DNA of 64,000 nucleotides. Source: Alphaproteobacteria bacterium. Its GTDB lineage: Bacteria; Pseudomonadota; Alphaproteobacteria; Micavibrionales; Micavibrionaceae. The notes beneath the pieces are model-generated. The model was not told the origin of the DNA. It searched no databases and was given only the letters and a program-made list of their open reading frames with translations. Positions 1-14,244 of this stretch are shown in pieces. The position numbers and the translations under genes were made by a program. The first letter of the stretch is position 1. The number at the start of each line of letters is the position of its first letter. The stretch lies in the NCBI GenBank assembly GCA_020442425.1, contig JAGRKB010000010.1, forward strand, positions 1 through 64,000, in the 5' to 3' direction.

Positions 1-145
1 TAACATAACAATATATATTATACATAAAAATTTTATAATTATATTTGCCCCCTAAATTCCCCATATAAAAAATTAACTAGTTTTTATAATATAATTACAA
101 GAAAACATGATTCTGTAAAATAAATTACATAATTAAGATTTTTTA

Positions 146-175
146 TTGACACTTTACCATAATCGCTGCCATATT
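146..175 (+). promoter_or_regulatory. Candidate sigma-70 promoter for the first acyltransferase gene
   Basis: A perfect TTGACA (146-151) is followed after 18 bases by CATATT (170-175), a partial -10 match. It lies in a very AT-rich 205-base stretch in which no gene is seen, and 31 bases before the start codon at 206, which has the strong ribosome site AAAAGGAGGT. This is inferred from consensus only. Confidence 0.35.
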
Positions 176-205
176 TTTGACATAGTTATAAAAAGGAGGT
201 GTGCA

Positions 206-1348
206 ATGATTATACATAATGAAAGCGAGAATAAGGTCTCGGTTCGAGATCTACAGCCTCTCGCAGAAACAGTCGTAACAGGTCAACGAAAAATAGACAA
301 AGAAAGCAGGAGGAGAAACAAGCTCCTTCAATTTGTTAGAACCAACAAGGAGAGATACCAGTTAGAAAAAGCTGAAACTGGAGTCATTGACACTAAGTCC
401 CTCATCATCGGGATTCGATTGGTGAAATTTGAGAATCCATCTCCACTAATGCTAATGTCCGGTGGACTTTTGGGAGAAGCACTAGAAAAACGCTGTGAAG
501 TCTTCGCAATGATGAAAGGTTGGGAAGAGATTCCGGAGAATTTCTGAGAAACAGATATTTATGACCCGTTCGCAACACACTATATGTTGGTCGGAACAGA
601 TAGATCAGGCCGCGATTATATTCTGGCGTATACACGTATAGTGCAGGCTATGAGCGAACAAAAAGCAGCAGAGCTTGGAGTAGAATATATTGAAAACCCT
701 GAGTGCATACCATTGCAAGCCGCTATGAAATCAAAAGGCGGACGCCTAAGCCATGAATTTGAAAAAATGGCAAATGACGGCAAGATTGCAGAAATATCTC
801 GTCTCTTAAAGAACCCATATATGACCAATGTTTTGGATAACTTTGTACTCGGGGTAGGGAAATTAGGAATAAAAATTCCCGTAAAGTCGTCAGAAGTTTT
901 ATTGGAATTGGCAACTGCTGACTTCATGAGAAGCCATCCCGAAGTAAAGGGCTTTGGAGCCTTGCTTAAAGACGGTTTGTGCGGCAGCATTAAAAAACAC
1001 GCCTTTGCAGTAGAAAATGTTGGTGAGAAAATTGACTATAAAGGGATGAGGATGCCCATCTGCTTGAACCCGTACTCTACGGGCAATCGTATTGCTCGGA
1101 TGATTCTTTCGTGCGTCTTTAAAAGAGCGCTCAAAGGAACATTAAATATTGTACATCCGGATGTCTTTAAAAATCATGGAGTGGTGGGTGATGGGGTGTT
1201 AAGGCATTATCTCTCAGGAGAAGTTGCAGGAGATTGTAAAGTTAAACTATCTTCAGGCAAACTTTTAGAAATAGGAAAGGACGATGAAAGAGATAGGGTT
1301 TGGATATCCAACAACGCACAGAGAGTTTTGGAAGCTATACCTAATTAA
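206..1348 (+). pseudogene. LuxI/FeeM-type N-acyltransferase interrupted by one in-frame TGA
   Basis: The gene starts at ATG 206 behind AAAAGGAGGT and would encode about 380 residues, but codon 545-547 is TGA; the reading frame then continues unbroken to 1348 (ATG 584 is in the same frame). The family makes acyl-homoserine lactones or N-acyl amino acids from acyl carrier donors. Around the break the LuxI-type residues are present with the expected spacing: RxxxF, then W six residues after that F, then E-x-D-x-x-D starting nine residues after the W. The TGA occupies the position just before this E. Further conserved parts follow the stop: Y-T-R and E-I-S-R. The intact neighbour at 1581 has the same motifs with Leu at the stop position. 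The N-terminal ~75 residues are basic and unlike the neighbour. The simplest reading is a recent nonsense mutation; readthrough or a sequencing error cannot be excluded. Confidence 0.75.
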
Positions 1349-1396: not shown

Positions 1397-1430
1397 AAAT
1401 GGAGAGGTCTATTCCTCTCCATTTCCTGTT
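1397..1430 (+). terminator. Rho-independent terminator after the interrupted acyltransferase
   Basis: A perfect 11-base-pair stem, AAATGGAGAGG (1397-1407) pairing with CCTCTCCATTT (1414-1424), has a 6-base loop and a T-containing tail. The stem carries A/T-rich flanks on both sides, so it may work on both strands. The rest of 1431-1580 shows no gene. Confidence 0.7.
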
Positions 1431-1580: not shown

Positions 1581-2447
1581 ATGAGTAAGCACTTGGGTTT
1601 TGGAAAAAGATTAAATGCTAGCCAACATATCGAGCAATTTAGACTCGTTGTTTGGCAAGGGGAGTACTTGCCGGAAGACGCGACTGACGCGCATAGCCTA
1701 TATGAGGCCTTTCGATTAAGGCATCAGGTTTTTGCCGAGATGAAACAATGGGAAGAAGAAAATGCAGATCGGCTGGAAATCGATGAATTCGATCAAAAGG
1801 CCCAGCATTTTATGCTGATTGGAATTGATGCTCATAAGCAAGAACACGTCCTAGCCTATACAAGATTGATTAAAGGCAATCCGACTCCGAAAACTCCCGA
1901 AAATCAATCGGACTATAATTTGCCGATGCAAAAAGCGGATGTGAATTTGAAAAAATTTCACAAAGATATTCACGAAGGACGTTTTTTGGAATTATCAAGA
2001 CTGGTGGCTAATCCTGTTCTCAGAAACACACTCCGCAAAATAGATAACATGTCTATCCGCTCGAGCGACGTCTTGCTTTATTTGACTCTGGAATACTGTC
2101 TGAATTCCCCCGAGCCTGCAGAAAAAATTATTGTGATCTTGGAAGATTTCATGTGCCGTAGGTTGGATTTTTTCGGAATTATCTACGAGCGCATCGGCCA
2201 ACCTGTTGAACACAAAGGGACGCGTTACCCCATCATGATTGATCCTCATTCGGAGCAGAATATCAGGGCAAGATCAAAAATCGGCCAGCTTCTACGTCGG
2301 GAAACTCACGGGACGATGGATGTGTTCTCCGAAGCTCCGACAAAAGAGAGGCTGGGGCGTCATACTAGACATTCCCGCCTGCCAAAATTCCCCAGAAGAA
2401 TGGCAGTACAGCAAGTTTTCAAAGTCGATATCGGAATAAACGACTAA
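1581..2447 (+). CDS. LuxI/FeeM-type N-acyltransferase (autoinducer-synthase fold)
   Basis: The 288-residue product is a GNAT-fold acyltransferase of the LuxI/FeeM/PEP-CTERM-associated type, which transfers an acyl chain from acyl-ACP or acyl-CoA to an amine such as homoserine lactone or an amino acid. Visible hallmarks are RHQVF (R and F four apart), W six residues later, the E-I-D-E-F-D acidic motif nine residues after the W, AYTRL (the R70-type arginine of LuxI), and ELSR. It is longer than classical LuxI (about 200 residues), with a basic C-terminal tail, as in FeeM-like enzymes. No LuxR gene is adjacent, so signalling is not established. It is a diverged paralogue of the interrupted gene at 206-1348. 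A ribosome site (AGAGGG) precedes the ATG. Substrate and product cannot be read from sequence. Confidence 0.75.
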   Translation: MSKHLGFGKRLNASQHIEQFRLVVWQGEYLPEDATDAHSLYEAFRLRHQVFAEMKQWEEENADRLEIDEFDQKAQHFMLIGIDAHKQEHVLAYTRLIKGNPTPKTPENQSDYNLPMQKADVNLKKFHKDIHEGRFLELSRLVANPVLRNTLRKIDNMSIRSSDVLLYLTLEYCLNSPEPAEKIIVILEDFMCRRLDFFGIIYERIGQPVEHKGTRYPIMIDPHSEQNIRARSKIGQLLRRETHGTMDVFSEAPTKERLGRHTRHSRLPKFPRRMAVQQVFKVDIGIND

Positions 2448-2468: not shown

Positions 2469-3392
2469 TTAGTGCTTCTTAGTCTTTCCCTTGTCCCCAT
2501 CCAATGGGGTCGGATCAAACAAAACAGGCTGAGGCGGTGCCGCGCAATCAAGAGGCATATCTTTCAACACGCTCCACTGCTCGACCCAACCCAAAACATG
2601 ATCGGCATTGTCAACCATCGTTACATTCATGCAATGACCATCCGCAACACTTTGCGCAAAGCTGTTATAAACAGCTGGCGGCGTTGTGCGATCCAGTTTT
2701 CCGAGGAAGTGGCGCTGGGGCAAATCAGCGACAGCAGGAGCAAAGTCAATCGGAGACAAAGATTCGTCTGAATAGACGACATTGTGAAGTTCTGCCGTAG
2801 TGCGTGGATCAAGATTTCCGGCAACTGTTCTCAAAGATAAAATGTCACTGCGCTGTGCTGCCAGAATAGTCGCAACAGCGGCCCCTCCATCATACCCAAC
2901 CAAATGGAAAGACGGTATGCCATAAGTCGCTTTGATATTATCCAGAACCGTCTGGTAATTGTCGATAACTTCCGGAGCAAAACGCTTGCCGGTCCAGAAA
3001 TCACTTGGACATTGGGAACCATGTTTCCAGCCTTTGTTATATTGGCATGGGCGCGCCAGCCAAATAACGTTAGCACCGGAATCCTGAGCAGCGAGGCGCA
3101 AAGCCACCGGATCAACCGGAGTAGGGTCGTCACTTACGGAAACATCATCGTAAAAAGCAACGCCATCCCCTTCGATATAAACAGTAGCGGGTTTGAATTT
3201 CTCATAAACACGTTCACGCGCTTCAATAATAAAATCCTGCGCAGGAATATTACGCTCCAGCATAAAGACAGGCAAAGCTGTCCGCTTGACAGTATCGTCT
3301 TTCATCACACTGTGTGTCCCACAGCCTGTCAAAAGGACGGCGCTAAGACCGACGGCCAGCAAAGAGCGTGTAAAAGTTGCTTGAAATGGCAT
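2469..3392 (-). CDS. Alpha/beta-hydrolase-fold lipoprotein with Asp at the nucleophile position
   Basis: The 307-residue product has a lipoprotein signal peptide with lipobox LLTGC (Cys about residue 24), so it is expected to be anchored in the envelope. The body looks like an alpha/beta hydrolase: a strand leading into a nucleophile elbow HLVGYDGGAA (about residues 165-174), a D-R-T turn near residue 230 and a catalytic-type NADH histidine near residue 262. The elbow has Asp instead of the Ser of GxSxG. Asp nucleophiles are known in haloalkane dehalogenases and epoxide hydrolases, but the rest of this protein resembles the Ser-type lipoprotein hydrolases, so the change may alter or abolish activity. 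AAGGGG stands 8 bases before the ATG. The gene is convergent with the acyltransferase at 1581. Confidence 0.7.
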   Translation of the reverse strand: MPFQATFTRSLLAVGLSAVLLTGCGTHSVMKDDTVKRTALPVFMLERNIPAQDFIIEARERVYEKFKPATVYIEGDGVAFYDDVSVSDDPTPVDPVALRLAAQDSGANVIWLARPCQYNKGWKHGSQCPSDFWTGKRFAPEVIDNYQTVLDNIKATYGIPSFHLVGYDGGAAVATILAAQRSDILSLRTVAGNLDPRTTAELHNVVYSDESLSPIDFAPAVADLPQRHFLGKLDRTTPPAVYNSFAQSVADGHCMNVTMVDNADHVLGWVEQWSVLKDMPLDCAAPPQPVLFDPTPLDGDKGKTKKH

Positions 3393-13449: not shown

Positions 13450-14244
13450 ATGGATCAAAATAGCCAGCAACCACTCTTCGACCATCTTGCAGAACTACGC
13501 AAAAGATTGCTCTGGTCAGCCCTTGTGATGGTCGTGGCTTCAATAGCAGCCTATGTTTTCTCCAAAGATATTTATGGATTTCTGGTGAAGCCTCTGGCCG
13601 ATGCTATGGGCCCGAATGATAGTCAACGCCTGATCTATACCAACCTGACTGAAGCATTCTTTACCTATGTGAAAGTCTCTTTTTTTGCAGGAACCTTCCT
13701 GACATTTCCGTTTATTGCTCTGCAAATCTGGAAATTTGTATCCCCCGGACTCTTTTCTCATGAAAAGAAAACACTTTTGCCGTTCCTGATCTCGATCCCC
13801 ATACTGTTTTTCTCGGGCGGAGCTTTGCTATACTATTTTGTCCTGCCAATGGCGTTTAGCTTTTTCCTTAGTTTCCAGTCCGCCGCCGACCAGACCGTGC
13901 TCCCCATCATGCTTGAAGCCAAAGTTGGGGAATATCTGGATCTGGTGATGATGCTGATCTTCGCTTTTGGCTTATGTTTTCAATTGCCGGTCGTGATGGG
14001 ATTATTGGGGCGGGCAGGCGTTATTACACCGCAAACTCTAATCACTAAGCGTCGTTATGCCATAGTAATCATGTTCGCACTGGCAGCATTTTTGACCCCG
14101 CCGGACATCATTTCTCAGGTTTGTCTGGCTGTGCCTTTACTGGGTCTTTACGAAATATCAATCCTTCTCGTTAAATATATGAATAATAAGACAAAAAATA
14201 ATAATGATATAAACAACAATATAAACAACGATGACGCCTCTTGA
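13450..14244 (+). CDS. tatC: Twin-arginine translocase subunit TatC
   Basis: Multi-pass membrane receptor for twin-arginine signal peptides. The 264-residue product shows HLAELRKRLLWS near the N-terminus, LTEAFFTYVKVSFFAG, FPFIALQIWKFVSPGLF, and six hydrophobic segments, the last ending with IMFALAAFLTPPD. The C-terminus is an unusual Asn-rich run encoded by AAT/AAC repeats (14180-14235). The last 14 bases overlap zapE. Confidence 0.95.
   Translation: MDQNSQQPLFDHLAELRKRLLWSALVMVVASIAAYVFSKDIYGFLVKPLADAMGPNDSQRLIYTNLTEAFFTYVKVSFFAGTFLTFPFIALQIWKFVSPGLFSHEKKTLLPFLISIPILFFSGGALLYYFVLPMAFSFFLSFQSAADQTVLPIMLEAKVGEYLDLVMMLIFAFGLCFQLPVVMGLLGRAGVITPQTLITKRRYAIVIMFALAAFLTPPDIISQVCLAVPLLGLYEISILLVKYMNNKTKNNNDINNNINNDDAS

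Follow-up and report, generated by a model that had tools for sequence, protein, structure and literature searches.

A putative LuxI/FeeM-like N-acyltransferase gene interrupted by a single TGA in a Micavibrio-like bacterium is probably a recent nonsense pseudogene

The PEP-CTERM/exosortase system-associated acyltransferases of TIGR03694 are N-acyl amino acid synthases, and such synthases were reportedly linked to exosortase in a paper of 2011. The two acyltransferase genes described here, the broken gene A and its intact neighbour gene B (Table 1), resemble these proteins in the N-acyltransferase region, and TIGR03694 is the best curated model for both and the only curated match of gene A. 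However, their scores of 42 bits (A) and 80 bits (B) lie below the cut-off of 112 bits, and no match to exosortase (PF09721) was found in their own genome (G000). The TIGR03694 member from N. meningitidis synthesises N-acyl amides (PMC9762135). The LuxI-type AHL synthases (PF00765) share with gene A the R..F, W, E-x-D-x-x-D, and R-type motif residues, but a Pfam scan of gene A gave no match, and the only LuxR-type receptor gene of the genome (L110:4852-5601, on G000:C101) is a LuxR solo that has no adjacent LuxI-type gene and does not lie beside the acyltransferase genes. Within the genus, another LuxR-type receptor is present only in G001, where a LuxI-type gene adjoins it. The third system for comparison is the bacterial nonsense pseudogene, which, like gene A, has a lone in-frame stop in an otherwise intact gene, an intact homologue in a relative, and intact paralogues in the same genome; gene A differs from the usual case only in that a break recurs in one other member of its subfamily.

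A structure model of gene B (moderate confidence, mean pLDDT of 61) matched AHL synthases first, including TofI, RpaI, BjaI, LasI, and EsaI, and then FeeM. Considering the curated-model scores, this structure model, the lone LuxR, and the lack of an exosortase match, gene A is best called a putative LuxI/FeeM-like N-acyltransferase, one copy of a gene that evolves fast. The sequence-only reading had named the gene LuxI-type; LuxI does match, but more weakly, and the curated models place the family closer to the exosortase-associated N-acyl amino acid synthases.

The window (the whole analysed stretch of 64,000 bases) forms the first part of contig C98 (80,872 bases). The draft genome has 2.2 Mb and 117 contigs, is probably a metagenome assembly, and belongs to an uncultured bacterium related to the predatory Micavibrio. 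Translation confirmed that the frame of gene A, 380 codons from the ATG at 206 to a natural TAA stop at 1346-1348, is open apart from one internal TGA. The proposed position of this stop, one residue before the conserved Glu with a spacing of W+9 to E, was also borne out: Trp106 and Glu115 are nine residues apart, and the acidic motif reads E115-T-D117-I-Y-D120. Gene A aligned with seven homologues (eight rows in total) without gaps from W106 through D120, which means that no frameshift or pair of indels is concealed at the TGA and that the stop is a plain substitution. In the relatives, the TGA column holds Ile, Met, Leu, or Thr and is thus mostly hydrophobic. The homologue in Alphaproteobacteria bacterium SZUA-429 (G010) matches residues 56-316 of gene A, spanning the TGA, with an E value of 5e-53; this homology on either side, together with the long frame past the stop, indicates that the continuation is not due to chance. 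The downstream YTR and EISR motifs are preserved, as had been claimed, and all 16 columns that are invariant over the eight rows are intact in gene A. The TGA precedes E115, D117, D120, R144, and E196, which with others are invariant in the family, and the premature in-frame stop therefore cuts off conserved functional residues.

Table 1. Features of the acyltransferase locus, with coordinates in the window.
Feature	Position	Strand	Basis or remarks
Promoter-like site: TTGACA, 18 nt, CATATT, with TG before the second hexamer	146..175	+	Consensus scan
Shine-Dalgarno-like AAGGAGG/AGGAGG region before the ATG	194..199	+	Read from the sequence
Gene A, putative LuxI/FeeM-like N-acyltransferase broken by one TGA	206..1348	+	Translation, homology, alignment
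Premature TGA in the reading frame (codon 114), directly preceding E115 of E-x-D-x-x-D	545..547	+	Translation, alignment
Terminator-like hairpin, 11 pairs, 3' of gene A	1397..1424	+	Consensus match only
Gene B, intact paralogue	1581..2447	+	Acetyltransf_5, 41 bits, over cut-off; Autoind_synth (PF00765), 24.2 bits against a cut-off of 24; fold like AHL synthases and FeeM
Lipase-like lipoprotein gene (named by inference from sequence)	2469..3392	-	Conserved neighbour of the acyltransferase subfamily

Apart from the stop, gene A has the appearance of a coding gene. Its codon scores are similar before and after the TGA and are positive in this frame only, and its identity to the G010 gene is 40% before the TGA and 42% after it. 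The nearest relative of gene A is only 38% identical. The one departure from the columns invariant in the other seven rows is a change from His to Cys at residue 97, and gene A has no more such departures than other members of the family do; no further lesion by which decay could be proved was found in it. The promoter-like site has 10 of 12 consensus matches, a score that shuffled sequences reach about as often. Neutral change, with a transition/transversion weight of 2, would be expected to add 44.8 stops per substitution per site to the frame, so that the single stop observed limits neutral decay to at most about 0.1 substitutions per site. The sequence-only reading had left the break as recent, recoded, or an error. 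With one stop, an otherwise intact frame that shows coding bias before and after it, preserved expression signals, and this bound on decay, "recent" is the best supported of these, whereas recoding found no support, as set out below.

Genes A and B adjoin the lipase-like lipoprotein gene, which occurs throughout the genus (11 of 11 genomes). Acyltransferases of the same subfamily adjoin this gene in G010, G005 (Micavibrio sp. UBA6212), G004, and G002 (CG1_02_46_17), of which G010, G005, and G002 are metagenome-assembled; in G006, there is no acyltransferase at this place, and dcd and murA follow the lipase-like gene. In the tree, the six lipase-adjacent genes group together in a supported clade (100/99), in which gene A is sister to the gene of G010 (100/97). 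The latter (on G010:C156) belongs to another species of the genus, has 38-40% identity to gene A, is free of the stop, and provides the intact homologue by which a nonsense pseudogene is recognized. The genome itself holds two intact relatives of gene A, namely the neighbouring gene B and another copy, the third, which lies on contig C117. In the tree, genes A and B are old, diverged copies. No relatives of the acyltransferase were found in viral contigs, phages, or plasmids, and a search of the source genome for apt found none. In three genomes of the genus, a contig breaks close to the acyltransferase locus (window 1-205, the end of G010:C156, and the end of G004:C29), and a repeat or variable region may lie there. 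The lipase-like gene of G002 is split by unread bases, which points to an assembly gap and not to a broken gene. Two distant paralogues of the lipase-like gene with about 36% identity (L041:2273-3115 on G010:C155 and L042:2379-3209 on G008:C55) were each flagged with one stop.

A second break was found in UBA6212, where the orthologue of the G002 acyltransferase (L013:5822-6673, G005:C1, minus strand) carries one in-frame TAG. It sits at a conserved Trp position (Trp in G002 and in the family), eight codons before the position of the TGA in gene A. The dN/dS of the G002-G005 pair is about 0.30 overall (YN00; 0.21 with NG86) and about 0.25 after the stop (YN00; 0.17 with NG86), low values which indicate that constraint on the G005 gene lasted until recently. 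Family hits were collected from 142 genomes of the order, and of these hits only gene A and the G005 gene have an internal stop. Gene B had been flagged with a TAA, but this TAA precedes the start of the gene, and the stops flagged for the family members in G112, G096, and G116 lie outside the genes. Two of the six members of the lipase-adjacent subfamily are therefore broken and none of the other family hits is, which suggests that the subfamily copy is often, and recurrently, dispensable and does not suggest a mechanism. The chance that two independent nonsense changes fall this close is about 4%, and their proximity was a post hoc observation, so that no special mechanism is implied. In the window, 20 pairs of same-frame neighbours of at least 100 codons are split by a single stop. 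A Pfam scan of six of them identified one as two adjacent flagellar export genes and assigned no family to the other five, and none of the six was thus shown to be a broken gene.

All of the evidence favours an ordinary loss of function of recent date, or a local sequence error, at gene A over a new reading of the code, and we suggest, with a probability of roughly 0.74, that a recent nonsense mutation made gene A a pseudogene. Next in rank, although unlikely, is an error in the consensus at the TGA, or a variant carried by a minority strain, with gene A intact in most cells. The full integrity of the rest of the gene agrees with this, as does the position of the TGA: only 545 bases separate it from the end of its contig, a region in which assemblies are less reliable, and the genome is in 117 contigs. 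However, the change is a substitution, neither an indel nor located in a homopolymer, and the similar lone stop of UBA6212 comes from a different species whose genome was assembled independently, and it lies 7 kb from the end of its contig. It is very improbable that gene A gives two proteins, one being the N-terminal fragment and the other beginning at an in-frame ATG at 584, 36 bases past the TGA: no Shine-Dalgarno-like sequence is present at the usual distance before 584, and the second protein would lose the family-invariant E115, D117, and D120. This is the least probable of the explanations considered.

Readthrough of the TGA at a useful rate, either by natural UGA leakiness or by a dedicated mechanism, would supply a little full-length enzyme. 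The preserved frame after the TGA and the lone stop nearby in another subfamily member are what such a product would call for, but we regard it as quite improbable, only slightly less so than the production of two proteins. Gene A and the G005 gene differ in both the stop codon and the residue affected, and neither position holds a stop in the intact relatives. A change of the genetic code is excluded, in agreement with the earlier claim, because ordinary genes here end in TGA: it terminates 8 of the 48 ORFs of at least 150 amino acids in the window, including a tatC-like gene (13450-14244, named from its sequence) that has another stop directly after it. Model matches for tRNA-Sec in the genome scored under the curated cut-off and fell on ordinary tRNA places. 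The tRNA-Trp is of the ordinary CCA type, and no stop-reading (opal-suppressor) anticodon was found among the tRNAs read, an incomplete set in which 2 of 27 places lack an ARAGORN call. No stable RNA structure was found just after the TGA (z between -0.62 and 0.37). Selenoproteins and programmed UGA readthrough go together with a tRNA-Sec or opal suppressor and with RNA structure after the UGA, neither of which these searches recovered, and selenocysteine, a suppressor tRNA, and structured readthrough are thus without support at this TGA.

Under the pseudogene reading, one substitution would have converted codon 114 into TGA, and translation from the intact start would yield a fragment of 113 residues. 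This fragment would stop short of E-x-D-x-x-D, so that both the acidic motif and the complete C-terminal portion of the acyltransferase fold would be missing, and it should be inactive. The two intact relatives, gene B and the C117 copy, may let the cell tolerate the loss. We infer that the cell does carry the TGA, that the fragment has no activity, and that gene A is dispensable.

That loss of the lipase-adjacent acyltransferase has been selected repeatedly in Micavibrio-like bacteria is a further proposal, which we consider improbable, though less so than readthrough. At least two species carry stops of independent origin at the catalytic motif of this subfamily, separated by eight codons; if the proposal is true, there would be lineages that are naturally signal-mute (or lipid-mute), or a low-level enzyme controlled by a stop. 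Gene A alone would be an ordinary recent pseudogene, and the parallel break in UBA6212 is a new observation of small added value. A literature search returned little on acyl signalling in this lineage, which is related to the predatory Micavibrio. If the recurrence in UBA6212 holds, it would suggest that an acyltransferase making a signal or a lipid is frequently lost there.
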